NCBI RefSeq assembly: GCF_003096075.1
Contig: NZ_CP015449.1
Coordinates: 3,465,001 to 3,529,000 of the forward strand
DNA length: 64,000 bases
Direction of reading: 5' to 3'
Source of the DNA: Dietzia lutea
Lineage (GTDB): Bacteria; Actinomycetota; Actinomycetes; Mycobacteriales; Mycobacteriaceae
This document shows positions 23,891 to 36,235 of this stretch, piece after piece. Within the stretch, counting starts at the first letter, position 1, and each line of letters starts with the position of its first letter. A program made the position numbers and the translations under genes. The notes under the pieces were generated by a model. That model saw nothing but the letters and a program-made list of their open reading frames with translations. It had not been told where the DNA came from and made no database searches.

Positions 23891-23965
23891 CCCCGGCGTC
23901 CCGCATTCTGCGCGCGATCGCACGCGGCCATGCGCGTCGGAATCGACGTGCCTTCGGGATCGGAG

Positions 23966-24331
23966 TCAGGCCCAGGGGGTAGTGGCCTGGAGCACCGCTT
24001 CCTGCAACGCGCTGGTACGCAGTGCCGTGACGGTCTGATACTCGGGGTCGGCGACCATCTCGCTGAACGCGGCGCGGCTGGGGTATCGGACCAACAGAAC
24101 GGCATCCCAGTCCTGGCCGGTCTCGGCGACCAGGACTGTGGAACCGTCACCCGCGTAGAGAACCTCAGCGCCGTAGCGGGGGAGGAACGTCTCGTTCAGC
24201 GCCGCGGCGTACCGCGCGTAGTCCTCTCGCCCGCCGTCGGCGAACCGGAGCAGGTTCAGCATCACCACCGGACCGCCGGGGTCTTCCTCCAGGTAGCGCT
24301 TGAGGTCTCTTCCGCGGGGATCGATAGCCAT
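23966..24331 (-). CDS. DUF1330-like small dimeric alpha-beta barrel protein
   Basis: A 121-residue protein with the ferredoxin-like barrel pattern of DUF1330: PVVMLNLLRFADGGREDYAR, YGAEVLYAGDGSTVLV, WDAVLLVRYPSRAAFSEM and VADPEYQTVTALRTSALQEA. Family members are small dimers of unknown function, some near catabolic genes. The ATG at 24331 gives the normal family length; the frame continues upstream but with residues unlike the family. It converges with the MFS gene. No strong ribosome-binding site is visible. Confidence 0.75.
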   Translation of the reverse strand: MAIDPRGRDLKRYLEEDPGGPVVMLNLLRFADGGREDYARYAAALNETFLPRYGAEVLYAGDGSTVLVAETGQDWDAVLLVRYPSRAAFSEMVADPEYQTVTALRTSALQEAVLQATTPWA

Positions 24332-24664
24332 CAGTCGAGTATGGCCGCCTGCCGCGCCACGTTGGCCCAAACGGCCATCCTCACTTCTTCTGCCGTCGGC
24401 TGCCGCCGTGCCGGTCCTCCTGCGTGCCGACCGTGTCCGCGTCGACTCCGAACGCGGCCAGCTGTGGCTTCTCGCGAAGGCGGCGAACTCGCCCGTCCCG
24501 CGCCGCTCACGCACCTCGCCTGCGCTGCGGTCGTCGCCGGCGTCCGGAGCGGTGTCGAAGATGTGCGCCCCGAAGGACCGCCAGCAACTACGCGAAGTTA
24601 TTTGTTCATGGGTAGCCACAAGTCCGGCTTCAGAAATTACCGATTCGAGACGAGGTGGGGCCGG
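24332..24664. other. Stretch without a recognisable gene
   Basis: The minus-strand frame of the DUF1330-like gene stays open through here, but its residues (Arg/Ser-rich) match nothing I know and codon use is irregular. The part near 24590-24660 is AT-richer and could hold regulatory sequence. It may be an eroded gene. Confidence 0.4.
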
Positions 24665-25240
24665 TCATCCGGAACGGGTCAATAGTGGCGTGAGTTCTTG
24701 GACTGCGATGTTCGCGAGGTCGCTCAGGCGAAGCGCTGCGGCGTTGAGCAGGCTTCCGTCCACGACGGCCGTGGCCAGTGAGACCGGGACGTGTCGGTAA
24801 CCGCAGGCGTCTAGCAGGTCGCGTAGTTGTCGGTCCATGATCTGCCGGTGCTCGCGCATGCGCAGTGAGAGGCGCTCGGATTCGCGCGAGCAGTCCACGA
24901 CGATCCCCACATACCCCGCCAAGCGCCTATCGCTCAGGTCGGGACCGTAGAAGGCGAGCAGGAACAACTCGGCAGCCTCACGCGGCGTGGCACTCTCCGA
25001 CGCCTCAACCAGGGCCTTGTCGGCTGCCAAACTGCGTTCAGTCTCGAGCCGGTCCACCGCGGCCAGGAGCAGGTCCTCTCTGGTGGAGAAGTAATAGCGG
25101 ATCGACCCCAGCGGAACGTTCGCAGCCGCAGCGACCTGGCGGTGGGTCACCGCCGACATGCCGGAGCCGAACAGCAGAGACGTGGCGGCGTCCAAGATGG
25201 CTGAGCGGCGCTGCTGGCCTCGCACCTGTGCGGCTGACAT
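24665..25240 (-). CDS. TetR-family regulator of the adjacent MFS exporter
   Basis: A 191-residue protein. GQQRRSAILDAATSLLFGSG, VTHRQVAAAANVPLGSIRYY and the FSTREDLLLAAVDRLE segment give a complete TetR helix-turn-helix with its Y-Y-F-x-x-R-E-x-L variant. The ATG at 25240 follows GAGGGG. It is divergent from the MFS gene at 25376, and a perfect 12-base palindrome (25262-25273) sits between them, so it probably represses both. The ligand is unknown. Confidence 0.87.
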   Translation of the reverse strand: MSAAQVRGQQRRSAILDAATSLLFGSGMSAVTHRQVAAAANVPLGSIRYYFSTREDLLLAAVDRLETERSLAADKALVEASESATPREAAELFLLAFYGPDLSDRRLAGYVGIVVDCSRESERLSLRMREHRQIMDRQLRDLLDACGYRHVPVSLATAVVDGSLLNAAALRLSDLANIAVQELTPLLTRSG

Positions 25241-25261
25241 CTGTGATCCCCTCACATTGTT

Positions 25262-25273
25262 ATACGATCGTAT
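25262..25273. promoter_or_regulatory. Candidate TetR operator
   Basis: ATACGATCGTAT is a perfect 12-base palindrome, and the flanks (GTT before, CAC after) partly extend it. It lies 22 bases upstream of the TetR start and about 100 bases upstream of the MFS start, the usual place for a divergently acting TetR operator. Confidence 0.6.
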
Positions 25274-25375
25274 CACTATGGGTTAGTGTCGTCGTTCCGG
25301 CGGCACGCGACGACTCGTCCGGTCACCCGCACTCCCCGCGTCAGAGGGCCCTCGGATTCTTCAAAGGAATCACCC

Positions 25376-26581
25376 ATGAACCACACCATGACACCCGCCT
25401 CTCCTCGCGCCGCGGCACCCACCGTGGTGGTGGGCCTTGCCGCCATCGTCGGCCTCGTGCCGTTCGCGATCGACATGTACCTCGCGTCCCTGCCGGACAT
25501 CGGCCGGGAGTTCTCCGCTCCGGTGTGGGCCACGCAGTTGACACTCACGGGCTACCTGCTCCTGCTCGGGGCCGGCCAACTCGTGGCGGGGCCCATCACG
25601 GATGCAGTGGGTCGCCGCCGGCCGTTGCTCATCGGTCTGGGACTGTTCGTGGCCGGCTCCGTGCTCGCCGCTGTTGCTCCGAGCATGAGCTGGCTCATCA
25701 TCGCCCGCCTCCTCCAGGCCACCGGCGGGGCGCTCGGGGCGGTCGTCGCCAACGCCACCGTGCGGGACAGGGCCTCGGGCCATGCCGCCACTCAGCTGTT
25801 CGCCGTCCTCATGACGGTCACCGCACTGGCTCCGATCGTCGCCCCCGCCGTCGGCGGGTGGCTGGACGCCGTGCTCGGATGGCGCTCGGTCTTCTGGACC
25901 CTGGCGATCCTCGGCGTACTGACAATGCTCTATGCCGCAGCCTTTCTGAAGGAGTCCCACCCTGCAGAGCGTCGCACACCCGTGGCGCTTGGCTCGACCG
26001 CGCGTGGCTATAGGACACTGTTGACCTCCCGCACGTTCGTCCTGCCCTGGGCGGCCGTGGTCTCGATGTTCATGCTGCTGTTCGCCTACATCGGCGGCGC
26101 CAGCTACATCTACCAGGACGACTACGGTGTCAGCTCGGAAGCGTTCGGGATGCTGTTCTCCTGCACTGGCATCGCCCTGATGGCGGGCGCGTTCGGCGCG
26201 AACCGGTTGGCCAAGCGCCTCGAGCAGAACACGCTGGCCGTCACCGGCGTGGTCCTGTCCGGCGTCGGCTCCGCGCTGGCGGTGCTGGTGACCGTCGTCG
26301 GCGCGCCGATCGGAGTACTCGTCGCCACCGTCGCCGTGATCATGCTGGGCCTGGGTGTCGCCGAGCCCGCCCTCATGAGCAACAGCCTGTCCTCGGTAGA
26401 AGAGAACACGGGCCAGGCCGCTGCACTCCTCGGCGCCGGGCAGTTCGTCCTCGGCGCAGCCGCCTCCGCCATGGCCGGTCTCGTCGTCGCATCCGGCCCG
26501 GTCGCCTGGACCGGGCTACTACTGGCAATCGTGCTCCTAGCCCTGAAGCTCAGCCTGGCCAGCGCCCGCACCGGCCAATAA
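25376..26581 (+). CDS. MFS efflux transporter, Bcr/CflA type
   Basis: A 401-residue, 12-helix transporter. PFAIDMYLASLPDIGREF (first helix with the D-M-Y-L motif), GQLVAGPITDAVGRRRPLL (motif A), ARLLQATGGALGAVVANATV and APIVAPAVGGWLDAVLGWR (motif C) are typical of the Bcr/CflA DHA1 subfamily, which exports drugs such as bicyclomycin or chloramphenicol. The start follows AAAGGAAT. It is divergently paired with a TetR gene that probably controls it. The actual substrate is not deducible. Confidence 0.87.
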   Translation: MNHTMTPASPRAAAPTVVVGLAAIVGLVPFAIDMYLASLPDIGREFSAPVWATQLTLTGYLLLLGAGQLVAGPITDAVGRRRPLLIGLGLFVAGSVLAAVAPSMSWLIIARLLQATGGALGAVVANATVRDRASGHAATQLFAVLMTVTALAPIVAPAVGGWLDAVLGWRSVFWTLAILGVLTMLYAAAFLKESHPAERRTPVALGSTARGYRTLLTSRTFVLPWAAVVSMFMLLFAYIGGASYIYQDDYGVSSEAFGMLFSCTGIALMAGAFGANRLAKRLEQNTLAVTGVVLSGVGSALAVLVTVVGAPIGVLVATVAVIMLGLGVAEPALMSNSLSSVEENTGQAAALLGAGQFVLGAAASAMAGLVVASGPVAWTGLLLAIVLLALKLSLASARTGQ

Positions 26582-26884
26582 GCACCGCTGACTCCTGCTC
26601 GGTCTGGGCCGAGGACGGTTCCGGCGGCGATTTTTTGAGACGATCTCGGGCCAGTGGCTCACCTCGCGGGGCTACCGGAAAGTCGTCGTCGTCGCCACAG
26701 ATCGCCCGACACCCGCTTAGCCCGGGGATCTCCCCGGCCAACGTCACCGCAGCCGCTGACGACTCGCAACGGCGTCCTGCACGGGAGGGCCGTATTCGGT
26801 CGCAACCGGGACCCTGCCCTGGCTGCGACCGAGGCCCCTCCGGTGATCGCCGATCGACCCAGTGGCTTCACCCCCGAGCCTGCC
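26582..26884. other. Intergenic stretch after the MFS gene
   Basis: Apart from a T6 tract and weak hairpin near 26608-26636, I see nothing convincing. Frames here are open only because of the GC content. Confidence 0.4.
26608..26636 (+). terminator. Weak intrinsic terminator candidate
   Basis: GCCG (26608-26611) can pair with CGGC (26622-26625), followed a few bases later by TTTTTT (26631-26636). A T6 run is rare in this GC-rich DNA and lies about 50 bases after the MFS stop. The stem is short. Confidence 0.35.
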
Positions 26885-27276
26885 TTCGACTCCACCAGGT
26901 CTCTCCTCCTGGTCCGAAAGCCCTTCCCTCGGGGCGGTTACGGCCCCAGTAGCCGGAGATCGATGCCCGCTCTCGGCCGGACCCCACGTTCCCGGCACGG
27001 ATGCGGTCGCACGTGCTTCGTCACCGCATCCGACTCGCCGCGGGCGAACACCTGCACGTCGCCGCCCGGCCACGTCACGCGCGCACCGGGTCAGGGCGAT
27101 AGCCGCCACGCACCGCTCACGACCACACTCGCACCGTGCTGGACTGTGCGGGCCCATGGTCCGGCGACACCCTCCTCGCCGTGGACCACGAAATCGAGCC
27201 GGATCTCACTCGCGTCAGTAGGCACCCTGCGCGCGGTGTATGCACGCACCGCAGAGTCGTCTCCTGCGGGGACGGG
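26885..27276 (-). pseudogene. Relic of a siderophore-interacting protein gene
   Basis: On the minus strand, AYTARRVPTDASEIRLDFVV and HGEEGVAGPWARTV match the FAD-binding region of the intact protein at 62634-63437 (RTYTVRRCDPVAREIWIDFV, HGDAGVAGPWALSV). The frame then breaks. In a second frame WPGGDVQVFARGES and KHVRPHPCRERGV match the C-terminal part, and in a third frame ASISGYWGRNRPEG matches the end. Start, N terminus and roughly 70 central residues are missing, so it cannot make a functional reductase. It lies just after the metallo-hydrolase that ends the aromatic cluster, marking a rearrangement edge. Confidence 0.75.
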
Positions 27277-27354
27277 ATCCCGGCGGCCTGGCGATGCTCG
27301 ACATCCATACCCGAGCCCACTCGACCGAGTCGGACCCGAACGCACCGAAGCCCG

Positions 27355-28014
27355 TCAGTGCCCGCGCTTGATCCATTCCTCGAGGTGCGGGGACTCGTCG
27401 CCGACCTTCGTGCCGTCACCGTGACCGGTGTGCACGAGGGTCTCCGCGGGGAGCGTGAGGATCCGCTCGCGGATGGAGGTGATGATCGTCGGGAAGTCCG
27501 AGTAGGAGCGGCCGGTGGCGCCCGGCCCGCCCGAGAACAGTGTGTCGCCCGAGAACAGGACACCCGCCTCGGGAACGTGGAACACGCACGAACCCGGCGA
27601 ATGCCCAGGGGTGTTCATCACCTCGACGCGGGTGCCGGCGATCTCGAACTGCTGACCGTCCTGCAGCTCACCGTGGGACACGTCGGGATGCGTCTCGTCC
27701 CACAGCATCTGGTCACCCGGGTGGACGAGGATCGGGGCGTCGAGCTTCTCGGACAGCTCCGGCGCCACGGTGATGTGGTCGTTGTGGGCGTGCGAGCACA
27801 GGATGCCCTTGACCTTCCGCCCCCCGACCGCGTCGATGATCGGCTGGGCCGTGTGGGCCGCGTCGATCACGAACACCTCGGAGTCGTCCCCGAGGATCCA
27901 GATATTGTTGTCCACCTCCCATTCGCCGCCGTCGAGAGCGAAGATCCCGCTCGTGACGACCTTCTCTATACGCAGCCCGCCGGCGTAGCCGGCACTGGTG
28001 TAGGTCTCACTCAC
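27355..28014 (-). CDS. MBL-fold metallo-hydrolase coupled to mscR (Rv2260-like), candidate S-formylmycothiol hydrolase
   Basis: A 219-residue metallo-beta-lactamase-fold protein. The dinuclear metal site is [13 protein letters not shown] (H-x-H-x-D-H), with further ligands in [20 protein letters not shown] and VHTGHGDGT; the overall pattern is glyoxalase-II-like. Its GTG start overlaps the mscR stop (GTGA), so the two are co-translated. The same pair occurs in Mycobacterium tuberculosis as Rv2259-Rv2260, as I recall. In this setting it most likely hydrolyses S-formylmycothiol to formate and mycothiol, completing formaldehyde oxidation; that reaction is inference. Confidence 0.82.
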
Positions 28015-29096
28015 AACGTCACCACCGATCGCAGTACGGAACCGGACTTCATGGCGTCGAACGCCGCCTCGACGGCGTCGATACCGATCCGCTCGGAGAC
28101 GAACTTCTCCAGCGGCAGTCGACCCTGCAGATGCAGGTCGACGAGCATCGGGAAATCCCTCTCGGGCAGGCAGTCGCCGTACCAGGAGGACTTGAGAGAC
28201 CCGCCGCGGCCGAAGAAGTCCAGCAGCGGGAGCTCCAGGCGCATCTCCGGCGTGGGAACTCCCACGAGGACGACCGTGCCGGCGAGGTCGCGGGCGTAGA
28301 ACGCCTGCTCGTACGTCTCGGGCCGGCCGACCGCGTCGATCACCACATCGGCACCGAAACCGCCGGTGAGCTCCTGGATCGCGGCGACGGGGTCGGTGGA
28401 GGTCGAGTTGACCGTGTGGGTCGCCCCGAAGTCCTTGGCCCACTCGAGCTTGGTGTCGTCGATGTCCACCGCGATGATCTCGGAGGCCCCGGCGAGTCGC
28501 GCGCCCGCGATCGCGGCGACGCCCACACCGCCGCACCCGATCACGGCCACGGACTGACCGCGGGTGACCCTGCCGGTGTTGATCGCGGCACCGATGCCAG
28601 CCATCACGCCACAGCCGAGCAGACCGGCGACCGCCGGGTCGGCCGACGGATCGACCTTCGTGCACTGGCCCTCGTGGACCAGCGTCTTGTCGATGAACGC
28701 CCCGATACCAAGTGCGGGCGTGAGCTCGGTGCCGTCGGTGAGGGTCATCGGCTTCGACGCGTTATGAGTGTTGAAGCAGTACTCGAGCTGCCCGCGCTTG
28801 CACGCACGGCACTCGCCACACACCGCGCGCCAGTTGAGGACGACGTAGTCACCCTCGGCCACGTGCGTGACGCGCTCCCCGACGGACTCGACGACACCGG
28901 CGGCCTCGTGACCCAGGAGGAACGGATACTCGTCGTTGATGCCGCCGTCACGGTACGCCAGATCGGTATGGCAGACGCCGCACGCCTGCACCCGCACGAT
29001 GACATCGTTGGGGCCCGGATCGGGAACGACGACGTCGACCAGTTCGACCTCGGCGCCCTTACTACGGGCGATGACGCCCTTCACGGTCTGCGACAT
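28011..29096 (-). CDS. mscR: S-(hydroxymethyl)mycothiol dehydrogenase (mycothiol-dependent formaldehyde dehydrogenase)
   Basis: A 361-residue zinc-dependent class III-type alcohol dehydrogenase. Catalytic zinc ligands lie in CGVCHTD and LLGHEAAG; the structural zinc site is [15 protein letters not shown]; the NAD-binding motif is [20 protein letters not shown]. Overall it matches AdhE2/MscR, which oxidises the spontaneous adduct of formaldehyde and mycothiol (and also acts as a nitrosothiol reductase). It starts after GAAGGAG. Its location downstream of gcoAB, an O-demethylase that releases formaldehyde, gives it a clear job here. Confidence 0.92.
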
Positions 29097-29140
29097 GGAT
29101 TTTCTCCTTCGGGAATGTGATTTCTATGAGTTGTGTGCGT

Positions 29141-29162
29141 CGCCGGGCGGCGCCGCCCGGCG
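29141..29162. promoter_or_regulatory. Perfect 22-base palindrome between catC and mscR
   Basis: CGCCGGGCGGC followed directly by its reverse complement. As RNA it folds into a nine-pair stem with a four-base loop. It lies in the 103-base gap between catC and mscR without a T-run, so it may be an intercistronic attenuator or RNA-processing site. Confidence 0.55.
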
Positions 29163-29199
29163 ATATGTCGATAATGCGAAGTCGTTGGCCTGGGAGTGT

Positions 29200-29481
29200 T
29201 CAGTCGACGCGCGACGGGTGGCGGGTCAGCGCCATGACCTCCATGTCCATGTAGGGGAACAGCGGGAGTCCCTGGAGCAGCTCGTGGAGTTCATCGGCCG
29301 ACTCGACGTCGAAGATGCTGATGTTGGAGTACTGGCCGACGATGCGCCAGAGCTCCTTCCACTTCCCCGAACGCTGCAGCTCCTGGCTGTACGCCTTCTC
29401 GCGCGCCACCGTCTCGGCGCGCACCTCCGGGTCCAAGTCGTGCGGGATCTTGACGTCCATCCGGACGTGGAACAGTGCCAT
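29200..29481 (-). CDS. catC: Muconolactone delta-isomerase
   Basis: The 93-residue product is the right length for CatC and shows its pattern: MALFHVRMDVKIPHDLDPE, REKAYSQELQRSGKWKELWR, GQYSNISIFDVESADELHEL and GLPLFPYMDMEVMALTRHPS. CatC converts (+)-muconolactone to 3-oxoadipate enol-lactone in the catechol branch of the beta-ketoadipate pathway. AAGGAG precedes the ATG. It lies 43 bases after catB on the same strand. The next enzyme of the pathway, an enol-lactone hydrolase, is not encoded in this window. Confidence 0.95.
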   Translation of the reverse strand: MALFHVRMDVKIPHDLDPEVRAETVAREKAYSQELQRSGKWKELWRIVGQYSNISIFDVESADELHELLQGLPLFPYMDMEVMALTRHPSRVD

Positions 29482-29524
29482 TGTCGGCCTCTCCTTCGTG
29501 TCTGTGGTGTGGGTCGGGCGGTGA

Positions 29525-30646
29525 TCAGCGGCGGGTGAAGCGCTCGACCGCGTCGTGGTCGAGCTGCACGCCGAGTCCCGGCCCCTCCGGGAGGTGCACG
29601 CGGCCCTCTTCGTAGCGGATCGGCGTGGTGACGTACGTCTCGGCCAGCAGCAGCGGGCCGAACAGCTCCGAGCCGTAGTTGAAGCCGGGCTCGGCGCATG
29701 CCAGGTGCAGCGAGGCGAGCGTGCCGATCGGCCCCTCCAGGGAGGTGGCGGCGTGGCAGGCGATCCCGGCGGCGCGGGCGATGGCGACCGTCTCCTTGCC
29801 CCGGGTCAACCCGCCGAGCTTGGTGGTCTTGACGGCGATGACCCCGGCGGCGTCGCGGCGGGCGACCTCGAGTGCGTCGTGCGGCGACTGGACCGACTCG
29901 TCGGCCATGAACTGCACCGGCAGGGACCGGTTGAGCTCGGCGAGCACCTCGACCTGCTCGGTGGGGGTCGGCTGCTCGATGAGCTCGATCCCGGCCTCCA
30001 CCAACGCGGGCAGGTGGACGTTGGCGGTGAAGCGGTCCCAGCGGGCGTTGATGTCGACCCGCAGGCCGGCGCGACCGTTCAGCCGCTCCGCGAGCGCGGC
30101 GATCCGGGCCACGTCCTCCGCCGGCTCCAGCGCGCCCATCTTCAGCTTGAAGGTGCGGTGCCGGTCCGCCGCCATGAGCTCGTCGATCTCGGCGACCATC
30201 TCCTCGAGCGGCATCGCGCCGAGCGCCCAGGTGCACTCGATCGAGTCCCGCACCGCTCCGCCGAGGAGCGAGCGCACGGGCACGTCGAGCGCGCGCGCCC
30301 ACGCGTCGAACATCGCGATCTCGAGGGCGGCCTTGGCGAAGCGGCCGCGGGCGACGACGCCCTCCATCGCCTCGAGCACGGCGGGGATCTCGTCCACCCG
30401 CCGGCCCACGGCGACCGGGGCGAGGTACTTCTCGACCAGCACCTGCATGGTCTCGGCCGACTCGCCTCCCCACCAGGGCCCGCCCGGCGTCACGCCCTCG
30501 CCGTACCCCACGACCCCGGACTCGGTGGTCACGGAGACGAGCAGGATCGCCTGTGCGGTGGCGGTGGTCGTCGCGAACTTGTGCGGCCGGATGAGCGGCA
30601 CGTCGAGGATCCGCGTCTCCACGGAACGGATGGTCAGGTCAGACAT
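29525..30646 (-). CDS. catB: Muconate cycloisomerase
   Basis: A 373-residue enolase-superfamily enzyme of the muconate-lactonising group, turning cis,cis-muconate into muconolactone. The K-x-K catalytic motif is HRTFKLKMG (about residue 165). Metal ligands are in LRVDINARWD, ELIEQPTP and MADESVQSP, and the opposite catalytic Lys is in VIAVKTTKLGG. The start follows AAAGGA. A 96-base gap containing a hairpin separates it from catA. Length and residues fit a functional enzyme. Confidence 0.95.
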   Translation of the reverse strand: MSDLTIRSVETRILDVPLIRPHKFATTTATAQAILLVSVTTESGVVGYGEGVTPGGPWWGGESAETMQVLVEKYLAPVAVGRRVDEIPAVLEAMEGVVARGRFAKAALEIAMFDAWARALDVPVRSLLGGAVRDSIECTWALGAMPLEEMVAEIDELMAADRHRTFKLKMGALEPAEDVARIAALAERLNGRAGLRVDINARWDRFTANVHLPALVEAGIELIEQPTPTEQVEVLAELNRSLPVQFMADESVQSPHDALEVARRDAAGVIAVKTTKLGGLTRGKETVAIARAAGIACHAATSLEGPIGTLASLHLACAEPGFNYGSELFGPLLLAETYVTTPIRYEEGRVHLPEGPGLGVQLDHDAVERFTRR

Positions 30647-30683
30647 GGGGGTCCTTTGCTGGGTCGGCCGGTGAACCGCCGAG

Positions 30684-30710
30684 GCCCCGGCCGCTCGTGG
30701 CGACCGGGGC
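30684..30710. promoter_or_regulatory. Hairpin in the catA-catB gap
   Basis: GCCCCGG (30684-30690) pairs with CCGGGGC (30704-30710) around a 13-base loop. There is no T-run. It is a possible intercistronic stability or attenuation element. Confidence 0.4.
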
Positions 30711-30742
30711 TGACGGAGGGGTACTGCGCGAGTCGGGCCCGG

Positions 30743-31886
<1,144 letters not shown>

Positions 31887-32180
31887 TCAGTCATGCTCGA
31901 CCAGAATGGTGGCACCCCCGTCCGCGAAGTTGGCGACATCTGCCTGAGCGGCCTGCCCCTCTGGCGAGGCCAGTGCGGCATCGAGCGCCTCCCTTGTCGG
32001 GAAGGTTGCGTGAAAGCTAGCGAATACTGCCTCCCCGGCGAGAGTGTCGACGTGGAGCGTGTAGCTTACGTCGGTCGCACCTGGGAGTGCCTTGGCTAGC
32101 GGAACGTGGATCTCCTCGTAGTGGCGGCGGAAAGCCCCCGGGTCGGTGGGCTGCCCGTAGAGGACGGTAAGGACGGCCAT
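31887..32180 (-). CDS. EthD-like small dimeric alpha-beta barrel protein
   Basis: A 97-residue protein: VLTVLYGQPTDPGAFRRHYE, IHVPLAKALPGATDVSYTLH and FASFHATFPTREALDAALAS fit the EthD family, as do the ferredoxin-like length and terminal ATILVEHD. EthD is required with the EthABC P450 system for fuel-ether O-dealkylation in Rhodococcus, by established work; its biochemical role is unclear. Here it follows gcoB by 14 bases and so is probably co-transcribed with the GcoAB O-demethylase. The ATG at 32180 has AAAAGGA upstream; an ATG at 32195 overlapping the gcoB stop is possible. Confidence 0.8.
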   Translation of the reverse strand: MAVLTVLYGQPTDPGAFRRHYEEIHVPLAKALPGATDVSYTLHVDTLAGEAVFASFHATFPTREALDAALASPEGQAAQADVANFADGGATILVEHD

Positions 32181-32194
32181 GTCGGTCCTTTTCA

Positions 32195-33217
32195 TCAGGC
32201 GCGGGCGAGTGCGTCGGCGGGCGTGAACTTCTCGCGATGAATGAGGCGTGGTGTCATCCGGCGACGCTTGAACGCTTTCACACCAGCCTCGACCATTGGA
32301 GGCGGACCGCAGAGCCATCCGGACCAACCGCGGCAGCTGGCGATGTCCTCCAGGAAAGCGTCAGTCGGGAAGCCGTTGCGATGCTCGGGGGAGGTCTCGT
32401 CCGAGAGGACGGGGACGAACCGGAAGCCGGCATACGTCGCTTCCAACTCGGCGAAAACACCGCCGTCGTACAGGTCGGACTGACCCCGCACGCCGTGATA
32501 CAGCACCACCTCACGGCTCGGATGCCGGGCCAGCGCAGTGCGCACGATGCCGACCAGCGGGGCCAGGCCGGTGCCTCCGCCGATAAGAACCATCGGCTCG
32601 CCGGCGTCTTCTTCGGTGGGAGGGACGTGGAAGTCGCCTAACGGACCCAGCCCCTCGACCCGATCTCCGGCTGCGACGGTCCCGAAAAGCCACTTATCGC
32701 TGGCGAGGCCGCCGGGGACGCGGCGCACGTGGAGCTCGAGCACTGTGTTCTCGTCGGCGATGTTGGCGAGCGAGTACTGACGACGCTCAGTGGTGCCGGG
32801 GACGGTGAGCTCGATGTACTGGCCGGCATAGAATTCAAGCGCCTCGTCGAGGTCGATCAGGATCCGGCGAGTGTCACGAGCAATCTCTTCGACCTTGGCC
32901 ACGGTGCCCGCGAGGTCATGCAGCACGTGCGTACTGCGGGTCTCGTCGGCACCGCGAAGTGCCACTTCGGTGTCGCGGAGCGGACGGGCCTGACAGGCTA
33001 GGGCCAGTCCTTGCGTCCGCTCCTGCGACGAGAGGGTTTCCTGAGGAGAGTCTCGGTGGTCGATTTCGCCGCTGAGAACCTGGAGCTTGCAGGTGCCGCA
33101 GGTCCCCTGGTTGCAGGAGTTCGGCATCCACACGCCGGCGCGGAGCAATGCCTCGAGGATCGACTGGTTCTCGAGACACTCGACGCGGCGACCCGCCACG
33201 CTGATCGCGGGGGCCAT
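32195..33217 (-). CDS. gcoB: GcoB-type aromatic O-demethylase reductase (2Fe-2S / FAD / NADH)
   Basis: A 340-residue three-domain reductase. The N-terminal plant-type 2Fe-2S domain has NSCNQGTCGTCKLQVLSGE and the fourth ligand in LALACQARP. The FAD domain has RRQYSLANIADE; the NAD domain has VLIGGGTGLAPLVGI and a CGPPPMVEAGVKAFKRRR end. The layout and wording closely follow GcoB of Amycolatopsis as I remember it, which passes NADH electrons to the P450 GcoA. The ATG at 33217 is favoured by GGAGGT seven bases upstream. It begins three bases after the gcoA stop. Confidence 0.93.
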   Translation of the reverse strand: MAPAISVAGRRVECLENQSILEALLRAGVWMPNSCNQGTCGTCKLQVLSGEIDHRDSPQETLSSQERTQGLALACQARPLRDTEVALRGADETRSTHVLHDLAGTVAKVEEIARDTRRILIDLDEALEFYAGQYIELTVPGTTERRQYSLANIADENTVLELHVRRVPGGLASDKWLFGTVAAGDRVEGLGPLGDFHVPPTEEDAGEPMVLIGGGTGLAPLVGIVRTALARHPSREVVLYHGVRGQSDLYDGGVFAELEATYAGFRFVPVLSDETSPEHRNGFPTDAFLEDIASCRGWSGWLCGPPPMVEAGVKAFKRRRMTPRLIHREKFTPADALARA

Positions 33218-33220
33218 CAC

Positions 33221-34441
33221 TCACACCTCCCAGGTGCAGTGCAAGCTCGTCGGACCGCGGAAGCCCCAACCCCAGAACTCCACTCCCTCGCGGGTATCGC
33301 GCTCGAGATTGGGAATTGCCTCGAAGAGCTCCTCGAGACCGATGCGCATCACCTGGTTGGCATAGTAGATGCCAGCGCAGGCGTGGTTGCCGGCCCCAAA
33401 GGCAAGGTGCGGCAGCGGGGGCCGGTGCAGGTCATACTCGGTAGGAGCGTCGTACTTTCCCGTGTCGTGGTTAGCTGAGCCGTAAGACAGGATCACCGGG
33501 GTGTTGGCGGGGAGGTCAACGCCAGCGATGGTGACTGCCTTCGTGCTGATCCGTGCAGTGGCGGACCAGATCGGAGAGGTCCAGCGCATCCCCTCGGAGA
33601 CGGCGCGCGGGATCAAACTCGCATCATCGACTACCTCTTCCATCTGATCGGGCCGGCCGAGGAGACCTACTAGCGTCGAGGCCATGCCATGTCCGGGCTC
33701 CTGCATCGCGCCGAGCAAGTAGACATAGATGGTCGGGTAGATGAACTCACGCTCTCTGGTCTTGCCTGGCGGCATGCCGTCATGCAGCCAATGCGAGATG
33801 GCGGTGTTCTCTGGCTGCTCGATCCACTTGTCGATGAGCGGGTCGACGACCGCCTGAATTTCGGCCCTCGCCTCGTCTCCGGGGGTGAAACCGTCGGGGT
33901 TGGTGAACTCGCCGTTCTCGTCGACACCGGCATTGGTGAACGAGCGGTTCAGTTTGTGAAACCACTCCCTCAGCTTGTCGGAGGACACCGATTGAAGTCC
34001 GAGAAGGTCGCCGAGGGACCGGACGGACACCGGTTCGCAGTATTCACCGACGAGTTCGGCGTGGCCGCGGTCTTCGATCTTGCTGATGTAGTCGCGGGCA
34101 ATCGGTCGGACCAGGTCGTCGACCCAGGTGTCCACCTCGGAGGGGTGCAACTGTGGTTCGACCATGCCCCGGAGTTCGGCATGGATGTCACCGTTGACTC
34201 CGATGATCGCCGGGTGACCGAACGTGCGCCCGCCAGCCGGGGTGATCACGCCCTCGAAATGGGGGCTGGAGGCCACCTCGCGACAGGCTTCAGCGGTAGA
34301 CGCGACGTACGAGCCGAGGACCGGGACGTACGCGATCGGCGCCTCGCGACGCAGTCGCTCATACGTCGGATACGGGTTGCGCTCGAGCTCGCTCATTGTG
34401 ACGTCATCGAGCCAGGACAGATCGTGCGAGGTGGCGGTCAA
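33221..34441 (-). CDS. gcoA: GcoA-type cytochrome P450 (CYP255A), guaiacol O-demethylase
   Basis: A 406-residue P450 with the heme-Cys motif [10 protein letters not shown] (Cys355), E-x-x-R in SEGMRWTSP and an unusual I helix [15 protein letters not shown], with no normal acid-Thr pair. Long identical stretches to remembered Amycolatopsis GcoA ([53 protein letters not shown]) identify it. The active-site phenylalanines in GGRTF, NRSF and WGFRG are kept. It demethylates guaiacol-type methoxyphenols to catechol plus formaldehyde. TTG at 34441 is chosen: GAGGAG precedes it and the length then equals GcoA. GC content is visibly lower than in neighbouring regions. Confidence 0.93.
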
Positions 34442-34550
34442 GGGTGCTCCTCGAGAGTGGGCCGTTGGGACGTCCACAAGTTAGGTCGATCACATCACTG
34501 CGACAACACGGAAAGCGCGACACCTATACGCGTTGCGCGGCGACTTTGTG

Positions 34551-34565
34551 ACCTGAGTCTCAGGT
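34551..34565. promoter_or_regulatory. Inverted repeat in the gcoA-gcoR promoter region
   Basis: ACCTGAG and CTCAGGT flank a single T, a perfect 7-base-arm inverted repeat 12 bases before the regulator start. The divergent spacer (34442-34577) also holds CGACA twice, 17 bases apart (34501 and 34518), the sort of direct repeat AraC proteins bind. Confidence 0.45.
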
Positions 34566-34577
34566 ACTCTCTCGGCC

Positions 34578-35516
34578 ATGGTCCGTCGTCTGCGATCCTC
34601 ACCTCGAGACTGGGGGCAGGCTTCACGCGCAGTCGCGCATGAGTACTTCCCGCACGAGTTACGCCTCCTCGGCGGCGCCTACGAACCCCGGTTGACGCTG
34701 CGCACACTCGATCTCGGACCAGTCCTCATCGGCCATGTCGGCTGGGGTGCCGATGTGGCTATCGAGTGCGACTATCCGGGGGCGTTCGAGGTGAACATGC
34801 CGATCACCGGGCACTTGGAAAGCCGAGGTCGGTTCGGATCACTCACCTCGGTGGTCGGCCAGGGCACACTCTTCTCAGCGGACACTCCCTCCCTGATTAG
34901 CCACTGGGACGCCACCTGCACCCTTATCGGAGTGAAGTTCGACAGTTCATGGCTGGAAGTTGAAACCGAAAGACTATTAGGGACCGACCGAGGCAACGTG
35001 CGTACGTTACTGCCGGAACAGATGTCCCTGACTGTGGGACGAGCCAGGGCTTGGCATCACCTGGTCGTCAGCCTCGCCACTAACGTGCACGACTCCGATC
35101 TCTTCATCGACAGCGGGCTCGTACGACGCCAACTTGCCGGCGCGGTAGCAGTGGGGCTCGTCGAAGCGTGTTGCCTCGAGGGCGGGATCGGTTCCACTGC
35201 CCGGCCACGAATGGTCCGACGGGTGATCGAAGCGCTCCACGATGACCCAGCGCGAGCTTGGACCGCTGCCGACATGGCCTCCCTTGCCGGAACCAGCTCG
35301 CGGCGGCTACAAGAAGGGTTTCAGCGGTGGGTCGGCCGCTCTCCCACCCAGCACTTGCTTGATATCCGGTTACAGCGGGCTCATGCGGACCTCACCGCTG
35401 ACCCGCTGTTGACAGTCAGTGAAGTGGCGGCACGTTGGGGCTTCTCATCAGCGAGTCGGTTCGCGGCGGCGTACAAGAAGCGATACGGCACTGTGCCGTC
35501 ACTGGCGCGGCGTTAA
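34578..35516 (+). CDS. AraC/XylS-family regulator, probable activator of gcoAB
   Basis: A 312-residue protein with an AraC-binding-like N-terminal half (EVNMPITGHLESRGRFGS) and a C-terminal double helix-turn-helix: AADMASLAGTSSRRLQEGFQ, the GRSPTQHLLDIRLQRAHADL linker and VSEVAARWGFSSASRFAAAY. It is divergent from gcoA across 136 bases. This is the standard layout for an aromatic-responsive activator (GcoR/EthR-like). It is the only regulator next to the gco-cat-msc genes and may control them all. Codon use is less GC-biased than in neighbouring regions. Confidence 0.88.
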   Translation: MVRRLRSSPRDWGQASRAVAHEYFPHELRLLGGAYEPRLTLRTLDLGPVLIGHVGWGADVAIECDYPGAFEVNMPITGHLESRGRFGSLTSVVGQGTLFSADTPSLISHWDATCTLIGVKFDSSWLEVETERLLGTDRGNVRTLLPEQMSLTVGRARAWHHLVVSLATNVHDSDLFIDSGLVRRQLAGAVAVGLVEACCLEGGIGSTARPRMVRRVIEALHDDPARAWTAADMASLAGTSSRRLQEGFQRWVGRSPTQHLLDIRLQRAHADLTADPLLTVSEVAARWGFSSASRFAAAYKKRYGTVPSLARR

Positions 35517-35814
35517 CCGAACCGCCCCTCTCCTCCATCTCGGATTCACGCTGGCCGCGGCGTGGCTGGCAAGGCGGGTAAGTGGGCCGCCATCGGGTCG
35601 ACGAGGAGCTTGCCGGCGAACCCGGTGAGGACAACGTCGGTCGCACGATCGATTGTCATGAGTGCCCCAGGGCCGGCGCGTCGAGCAGCCTCGCCTCGCC
35701 GAAGTGCCGCGCCTTCGGGACACACGTTCATCGAGGCTCGCGGTTATCGTGCGCTCCCGCCCCGGGGCGTGGACCAACGGCGCTACGCCCGATCGACCGT
35801 GCCGGCTCCTCTCA
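35517..35814. other. Junction region downstream of the AraC gene
   Basis: No supported gene. A 37-codon minus-strand frame from 35659 has a clean ATG but no recognisable homologue. The segment from 35798 onward is duplicated at 38355 (CGTGCCGGCTCCTCTCA), so the duplication described below begins here. Confidence 0.4.
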
Positions 35815-36110
35815 TCAAGTGATGCGCTCCGGGCGGGCGTCGGCGAGGATCTCGTCGCGGTCGTCGGCCATCAGGAAGCCCTCATCGATGAGCCGGTCGG
35901 TGGCCTCGGTATAGGCGCGTAGGTACTCGTCCCGATCGGACCACAGCTGCCGCAGCTGCTCGTCGGAAACCACCTCGGTGCGCCCGAGCAACATGCAGAA
36001 GGGCGCGGAGTGCGGATAGCGCGCACCGACCGACTTCTCGACCGGCTGTCCCTTGTTGATCGCGCCGCCGCAGTCGACCATGCCCGCGAGCTCGGCCAGC
36101 TGGTAGGCAT
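35815..36110 (-). pseudogene. Truncated, internally deleted copy of the alpha/beta hydrolase gene
   Basis: The minus-strand frame DAYQLAELAGMVDCGGAINK...VEKSVGARYPHSAPFCMLLG to DDRDEILADARPERIT is nearly identical to the C terminus of the intact hydrolase at 38369-39766. About 55 residues between MVDC and VEK are deleted without breaking the frame, and everything before DAYQL, including the catalytic Ser, is missing. The DNA match continues past the stop to 35798. It is a partial direct duplication and cannot be an active hydrolase. Confidence 0.8.
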
Positions 36111-36121
36111 CCGCCTCCATC

Positions 36122-36235
36122 TACTCGACGGACGAGGGCATCACCATGGCGTTCGGCGTGGGCGTGGTGTGTTGTGCGGTGGTGATGGCGGCGTTGGTGG
36201 CCCACGCCGTGTTGTCCCGCCGGCGTTCCGGGTAG
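36122..36235 (+). pseudogene. C-terminal scrap of an MFS transporter gene
   Basis: Plus-strand codons YSTDEGITMAFGVGVVCCAV...HAVLSRRRSG then stop. This corresponds closely to the last 38 residues of the MFS exporter at 22487-23890 (YSTDEGITMAFGVGVICCAT...HAVLGRRRRAHQ). Nothing upstream continues the frame; instead the shortened hydrolase copy abuts it on the other strand, so the two relics meet at about 36115-36121. It is the tail of a lost paralogue. Confidence 0.75.

Follow-up and report, generated by a model that had tools for sequence, protein, structure and literature searches.

O-demethylation is reported to be limiting in many cases of lignin upgrading (PMC6021390). Formaldehyde is a toxic by-product of this reaction. 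In the guaiacol O-demethylase GcoAB, a cytochrome P450, GcoA, works with a reductase, GcoB. Here we analyzed a block of nine genes in Dietzia lutea which seems to combine a guaiacol O-demethylase (gcoAB), catechol cleavage (catABC) and mycothiol-dependent formaldehyde oxidation (mscR and a hydrolase gene of the metallo-beta-lactamase fold, MBL). It lies at 27355 to 35516 of a 64,000-nucleotide stretch, hereafter the window (C1:3465001-3529000 of a 3.9-Mb genome in 4 contigs). Judged by sequence comparison, the arrangement appears to be a catabolic operon of a known type, which is also plasmid-borne. What seems to be new is that its origin is mosaic and that there is evidence of gene conversion linking operon and chromosome.

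The gcoAB genes of Amycolatopsis sp. ATCC 39116 (PMC6021390) are like those of the window in encoding GcoA and a three-domain GcoB, and in the pocket residues Phe75, Phe169, Phe395 and Thr296. The assays of this enzyme pair were done without EthD (PMC6021390). Nine Amycolatopsis loci in our comparison (ATCC 39116 is not named among them) are unlike the window in that they have AraC-gcoA-gcoB without linked cat, msc or EthD genes. In Gordonia alkanivorans, guaR-guaA-guaB likewise consists of a divergent AraC gene and a gcoAB pair, guaAB is induced on guaiacol and the cat genes are co-induced; however, the cat gene numbers are far from those of guaAB (Table 2 of that paper), and no msc gene is among the nine genes listed (PMC12488008). 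The gene numbers 3_1052 (catA) and 3_1059 (gcoA) of Rhodococcus rhodochrous GD02 suggest a neighborhood as in the window, and both genes were upregulated on mixed black-liquor aromatics, but the accessible text reports no formaldehyde genes beside them (PMC8461187). On plasmid pRGD2 of R. rhodochrous, the O-demethylase genes vanA2B2 are near predicted genes of mycothiol-dependent formaldehyde oxidation, which the authors suggest to be protective; unlike the window, the enzyme is a vanillate O-demethylase, and the accessible text mentions no cat genes there (PMC9618137). EthRABCD of Rhodococcus sp. B2 also comprises an AraC regulator, a P450 O-dealkylase, a reductase and EthD, the last being required in vivo and in vitro, but it has a separate ferredoxin and a different P450 (PMC7934444). 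For formaldehyde itself, a mycothiol-dependent formaldehyde dehydrogenase of Rhodococcus was more abundant on lignin (PMC10662689), and an AdhE route is reported in Corynebacterium (PMC12914118).

A plasmid-shared operon with host-like cat and msc genes

All nine genes of the block are intact. As in the preliminary description, which was made from the sequence alone, they comprise eight co-directional genes and one divergent AraC gene, and their reading frames are where it had placed them. The AraC-family regulator gene (34578..35516, plus strand; Pfam PF14525 and PF12833) is the counterpart of guaR of G. alkanivorans. The other eight are on the minus strand, in the order gcoA (33221..34441), gcoB (32195..33217), the EthD-like gene (31887..32180), catA (30743..31609), catB (29525..30646), catC (29200..29481), mscR (28011..29096) and the MBL gene (27355..28014). 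GcoA, predicted to be a CYP255A-type guaiacol O-demethylase, had GcoA 5ncb as its top solved-structure match (E 3.4e-241, 803.9 bits, residues 12-418) and was 78-84% identical to the proteins of the nine Amycolatopsis loci. GcoB, encoded next to it, is a three-domain reductase (2Fe-2S, FAD and NAD; Pfam Fer2, FAD_binding_6 and NAD_binding_1), and its top solved-structure match was 5ogx (E 1.9e-163). NCBIfam models were matched above their cut-offs by the small EthD-like protein (TIGR02118, 80.2 bits against a cut-off of 30.5; also PF07110), the catechol 1,2-dioxygenase CatA (TIGR02438, 463 against 404), the muconate cycloisomerase CatB (TIGR02534, 540 against 335), the muconolactone delta-isomerase CatC (TIGR03221, 153 against 131) and the S-(hydroxymethyl)mycothiol dehydrogenase MscR (TIGR03451, 694.9 against 513). 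The MBL protein, presumed to be an S-formylmycothiol hydrolase, matched Pfam Lactamase_B (PF00753) and no NCBIfam model above cut-off.

A tblastn search of GcoA against 72,556 plasmid records gave 27 records, and the best was pDK2035-77 of Dietzia kunjamensis BIM B-2035 (CP155442.1; 95.7%). The best plasmid match of CatA was also found in D. kunjamensis (90.6%). According to its annotation, pDK2035-77 carries the identical nine genes in identical order and orientation, and the idea that the operon is unique to this genome was thus rejected. The preliminary description had known of no account of this exact arrangement. The literature that we searched, which covered few subscription papers, holds no description of the operon or of its conversion, but the same gene order had been deposited with the plasmid. 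Window and plasmid are joined by a single 8.2-kb DNA alignment (85.6%), which spans all spacers, covers window positions 27370 to 35551 and goes no further. Identity was 91.1% in the AraC gene, 91.6% in gcoA, 87.6% in gcoB, 89.1% in the EthD-like gene and 75.7% in the EthD-catA spacer (31611..31886, minus strand). It was 83.9-84.4% in catA, 83.7% in catB, 86.5% in catC, 84.5% in mscR and 82.9-83.0% in the MBL gene. In a quick GcoA tree of 36 rows chosen from 82, window and plasmid were sisters (SH-aLRT, the Shimodaira-Hasegawa-like approximate likelihood ratio test, 100), followed by Nocardioides luteus and N. albus (97). The EthD-catA spacer matched pDK2035-77 with an E value of 4e-30, was found at a single place in its own genome and had no comparable match to the chromosomal cat locus. 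The G+C content of the AraC-gcoAB-EthD part (61-67%) contrasts weakly with that of the flanks (65-75%).

Unlike the operon of pDK2035-77, whose cat and msc alleles are ~84% identical to those of the window and are not near-copies of chromosomal genes of the window's genome, the block contains two tracts that are almost identical to genes of its own chromosome. The catABC tract (29203..31610, minus strand) has 9 differences in 2408 bp from C1:1263240-1265647 (99.6%), and the mscR-MBL tract (27355..29100, minus strand) has 13 in 1746 bp from C1:1555200-1556945 (99.3%), both without gaps. By gene, DNA identity to the chromosomal copies was 99.7% for catA, 100% for catB, 99.3% for mscR and 99.2% for the MBL gene, and CatC was 98.9% identical at the protein level. 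BLAST revealed no similarity between operon and chromosome beyond these two tracts. Trees of 16 and 23 rows placed the operon cat and msc genes as sisters of the chromosomal copies of the same genome, and approximately unbiased (AU) tests rejected a clade of the operon copies with the plasmid operon (p = 4.6e-108 for cat and 1.2e-55 for msc). Paralogues within the genome are therefore closer to each other than the orthologues of the two operons, as interlocus conversion would predict. By three-way alignment, 404 sites of catABC follow the own chromosomal copy, 3 follow the plasmid (in all of them it is the chromosomal copy that has changed) and 1 follows neither; the numbers for mscR-MBL are 270, 3 and 4. 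Because the chromosomal cat and msc copies are ~95% identical to those of the nearest sampled congeners, the chromosome was taken as the source. Among 23 genomes of the genus, mscR is present in 22 and in two copies only in this one; a catA match was found in 12 of the 22 congeners, one in each.

At nucleotides 4 and 8, catA of the window has the plasmid bases, and from about codon 5 it is of the chromosomal type. The assignment at the start of catA was made by eye, since the three-way alignment is unreliable there owing to a 15-bp insertion in the plasmid gene. At the other end, catC is one codon shorter than the chromosomal copy and ends where the plasmid gene ends. Three differences fall within the initial 11 bp of catA and six in the last 234 bp, and there are none in the 2,162 bp between (31598 to 29437). 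None of 200,000 random placements of 9 sites produced such a gap, and the probability is 1.5e-5 when 6 sites are counted. The interior is no cold spot, since differences between the nearest congener and the chromosomal copy occur in each tenth of the tract. A plasmid-type spacer and plasmid-type first nucleotides followed by a difference-free interior are what a conversion tract would look like, and the clustering of the differences is a stronger trace of conversion than the marks at the edges.

Probable gene conversion and its alternatives

We think it likely that the operon has the function outlined below, that it shares its origin with the plasmid, and that its catABC and mscR-MBL genes were overwritten by resident alleles through ectopic gene conversion. 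On this view, a mobile guaiacol operon of Dietzia would have entered the chromosome, and the coding regions of catABC and mscR-MBL would have been replaced after its arrival by the resident chromosomal alleles. As the homology between operon and chromosome is confined to the genes, the tracts end at gene ends. Conversion limited by the ends of homology would explain both cat and msc; an exact duplication would account for msc only and leave the plasmid-type EthD-catA spacer unexplained. Interlocus gene conversion reportedly keeps the duplicated beta-ketoadipate genes catIJF and pcaIJF of Acinetobacter alike. The present case differs in that one partner arrived with an operon that is also plasmid-borne and in that it concerns two unlinked chromosomal loci.

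Several observations weigh against conversion. The edge marks of catABC are few and non-exclusive, and hence weak: the congener G411 has the same catA nucleotides 4 and 8, the extra catC codon is also absent from G411, G413 and G415, and the end of the window's catC (CGCGTC) matches neither parent. The differences in mscR-MBL are evenly spread (P = 0.97 for the longest gap) and leave no unconverted edge, so that conversion there is indistinguishable from a precise copy. The catC-mscR spacer is 68.8% identical to that of the plasmid only when aligned in context; alone it gave no significant plasmid match, which is not decisive. It is also much to ask of conversion that it should have bridged ~16% divergence on two occasions, each time over nearly the whole length. 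Furthermore, the replaced alleles are deduced from one plasmid and none was seen in this lineage, and among the 23 genus members GcoA with more than 60% identity occurs only in this genome (two others have relatives of 51-52%).

The near-identity to the chromosomal copies would also result if the incoming operon had ended at the EthD-like gene and host catABC and mscR-MBL had been inserted behind it by two duplications breaking at gene ends. When polarized by the nearest congeners, 6 of the mscR-MBL differences are derived on the chromosomal copy and 7 on the operon copy, a pattern that a simple duplication would leave. Of the 80 gco loci surveyed below, most have neither cat nor msc genes within 10 kb, and the plasmid is not alone in having the edge marks. 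However, pDK2035-77 already holds cat and msc in the same order, with an EthD-catA spacer homologous to that of the window, and two independent insertions with four gene-exact junctions at matching positions are improbable. We consider this course of events quite unlikely. The operon might instead have been acquired ready-made from an unsampled close Dietzia in which conversion or recruitment had already happened. The nearest sampled congeners, at ~95% in cat and msc, leave room for such donors, and a 12-kb stretch around the block is missing in three of the five congeners fetched and replaced by other DNA in two. But none of the congeners compared has alleles as close to the operon copies as those of the same chromosome, and conversion or capture would still be needed in the donor; this origin seems doubtful to us. 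As for an assembly chimera or an engineered strain, gene-exact junctions do resemble the design of a construct. The total of 22 differences, some of them derived on each copy, the plasmid-type EthD-catA spacer and the quality of the genome (100% complete, 0.33% contaminated, 4 contigs) make such an artefact highly implausible.

If the tail of the operon was indeed overwritten, a foreign catabolic operon would have gained host-matched enzymes with its gene order unbroken. Trees of cat or mscR genes from such operons should also be read with caution, as they can reflect the host and not the origin of the operon.

GcoA loci in other genomes and the mscR genes of Klenkia

A scan of genome contigs for GcoA relatives gave 122 stretches, and the counts given here rest on 80 of the 122 loci. 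One locus has less than 2.5 kb of downstream sequence and nine have less than 3 kb upstream, so the counts are lower bounds. gcoB directly follows gcoA in all 80 loci and a divergent AraC gene precedes gcoA in 72. An EthD gene directly after gcoB was found in 14. catA occurs within 10 kb in 17 loci, in the same gene run in five of them. mscR lies within 10 kb in four, those of Nocardioides albus, Klenkia marina, K. terrae and Halopolyspora, with an MBL gene after mscR in two; about 0.5 such loci would be expected, assuming 1.5 mscR per 5 Mb. For N. albus and Halopolyspora, no mscR other than the gco-linked one was found (E up to 1e-100), and both Klenkia genomes have two. None of the 80 loci has gco, EthD, cat, mscR and MBL genes in one run.

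Other combinations were seen in the scan. In Blastococcus and Geodermatophilus (L113, L114, L115), gcoAB is inside the cat run, as catA-gcoA-gcoB-catB-catC, with EthD after gcoB in two of the three. Mameliella and Thalassococcus (Pseudomonadota; L123, L124, L125) have gcoAB with EthD, and the three-gene set thus occurs in two phyla. One locus (L037, genome G018) encodes a distant GcoA relative (42%) with one in-frame TGA.

The two mscR genes of K. terrae are 96.1% identical, compared with 92.9% between its non-gco copy and that of K. marina. We compared the two genomes at the 84 sites that differ between the two K. marina copies. The chromosomal mscR of K. terrae is of the chromosomal type at the first 10 sites and then mostly of the gco type up to about position 1000, with 17 sites of chromosomal type, 65 of gco type and 2 of neither. 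These types form 13 runs, and none of 20,000 shuffles gave as few. The simplest reading of the sequences is that information flowed from the operon to the chromosome in K. terrae; a replacement inside the chromosomal mscR of K. marina would be a less simple reading of this two-genome comparison. Taking ectopic conversion in Dietzia together with the Klenkia pattern, we slightly favor the view that mobile catabolic operons become naturalized by ectopic conversion, in either direction and gene by gene, with Dietzia and K. terrae as two independent cases. Overwriting would proceed gene by gene because the genes, and not the spacers, are homologous.

Predicted pathway, regulation and surroundings

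The pocket residues Phe75, Phe169, Phe395 and Thr296 named for the Amycolatopsis enzyme (PMC6021390; PMC13101465) are conserved as F86, F180, F406 and T307 by alignment offset. Together with the family models, they support well the route that had been proposed at the outset, in which the block would lead from guaiacol to 3-oxoadipate enol-lactone and from formaldehyde to formate via mycothiol. By the same offset, the heme Cys of GcoA is presumably C367. GcoAB would O-demethylate guaiacol to catechol and formaldehyde, and CatA, CatB and CatC would convert catechol to the enol-lactone. The title of the preliminary description had named muconolactone as the endpoint; given CatC, the enol-lactone named in its text is the one to keep. 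Formaldehyde would form an adduct with mycothiol, MscR would oxidize it to S-formylmycothiol and the MBL protein would free formate. The prediction that the block has its own formaldehyde disposal is supported by the mycothiol synthesis gene mshC in the genome (TIGR03447) and by the excess of mscR near gco noted above.

The remaining steps had been expected to lie elsewhere, and we found them at a distant chromosomal locus. Two catA genes in the genome exceed the cut-off, and the second (C1:1263250) is flanked by benABC-type dioxygenase and reductase genes and by thiolase, pcaD and pcaI/pcaJ genes (stretch L139). pcaD (C1:1268109) is above its cut-off and the pcaI/pcaJ family models were matched, while the thiolase, at 342 bits, falls short of the pcaF cut-off of 597. 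With pcaD, pcaI/pcaJ and the thiolase located beside this catABC, the steps after the enol-lactone are encoded 2.2 Mb away, and PcaD, PcaIJ and the thiolase of this ben-cat-pca locus would complete the path. The second mscR is at C1:1555204, and on the chromosome too an MBL gene follows it. In the ben-cat-pca stretch, a BenC-like reductase and an FCD (GntR-type) regulator domain share one 707-aa frame (L139:2712-4832), which is either a fusion or a missed boundary.

The EthD-like protein probably assists the P450 step. Its predicted order of elements, strand-helix-strand-strand-helix-helix-strand, was read as a ferredoxin-like fold (predicted local distance difference test, pLDDT, of the model 94.1). 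A role as 4-methylmuconolactone isomerase was considered and is unsupported: the profile search matched 2ftr (BH0200), olivetolic acid cyclase weakly and EthD 3bf4 marginally, and no muconolactone isomerase. The operon could also be a general methoxyphenol route whose natural substrate is another 2-alkoxyphenol, with EthD serving a methylated branch. Amycolatopsis GcoAB also accepts guaethol, anisole, 2-methylanisole and 3-methoxycatechol (PMC6021390), and an EthD-like gene follows gcoB at only 14 of the 80 loci. This seems unlikely to us, as the cat genes suit catechol and Thr occupies the discriminating position (Thr296 in GcoA, Ala in AgcA and Ser in SyoA; PMC13101465). A natural operon with gcoAB, catechol cleavage and formaldehyde oxidation, present on both plasmid and chromosome, offers a ready-made design to test.

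A putative operator, consisting of two CGCGCGATCCGTGTCG-like elements 20 bp apart, is located between the AraC gene and gcoA (34504..34539), and pDK2035-77 has the same pair. We compared 70 AraC-gcoA spacers (68 loci, the window and the plasmid), and the CGCGCGATCCGTGTCG-like pattern was picked after seeing their alignment. The pair occurs in 59 of the 70, compared with 2.05 expected after mononucleotide shuffling, and its spacing is 20 bp in 58 of the 59. The AraC protein may sense guaiacol or its product and activate gcoAB from this direct-repeat site. No such pair was found in the EthD-catA or catC-mscR spacer; the former has one weak single element on the opposite strand at 31776 (8.5, threshold 8), and the window contains 25 single matches in all, the pair included. 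The proposal of one regulator for the whole block is thus supported only in part, with a conserved operator-like pair before gcoA and none before catA or mscR. With a 276-bp gap between EthD and catA, the eight co-directional genes need not form one transcript. The scans for promoters (1 promoter-like site, in this gap, against 0.6 expected by chance) and terminators (1 terminator-like site against 3.0 expected) were uninformative. The catC-mscR spacer contains a perfect 24-nt inverted repeat (29140..29163).

The start of gcoA is probably TTG at 34441 and not GTG at 34477, because the plasmid and the other relatives that show a start have ATG there after a similar ribosome-binding site. With TTG (34439-34441) in place of ATG, expression could be lower.

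Unlike the window block, that of pDK2035-77 is followed at some distance by genes with annotated roles in aldehyde or formaldehyde oxidation. There may be a second aldehyde module behind the operon (L223:28414-41194), where the listed genes encode WhiB, a glutathione-independent formaldehyde dehydrogenase, zinc-dependent alcohol dehydrogenases, a hemerythrin protein and a further MBL protein. Although PLSDB types the plasmid as non-mobilizable, its annotation at L225:9326-23105 includes a MobF relaxase and transfer-like genes. A second D. kunjamensis plasmid, pDK2035-69 (L224:8001-10406), has another catABC beside an IclR regulator and a ring-hydroxylating dioxygenase.

In the window, the block is part of an extra stretch of ~12.2 kb (23936..36109) that also contains a small gene, a TetR gene and a Bcr/CflA-type transporter gene. 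The flanks (to ~23.9 kb and from ~36.1-36.4 kb) adjoin each other in the congeners G409, G398 and G401, and G412 and G413 hold other DNA there. Since the plasmid match covers only the gco block, the neighboring TetR and transporter genes must have come otherwise. At the right edge of the extra stretch (35797-36225) there are broken repeats of the neighboring hydrolase gene and of the transporter end, and this segment differs again in G413; the broken hydrolase-gene repeats suggest that the spot may be prone to change.

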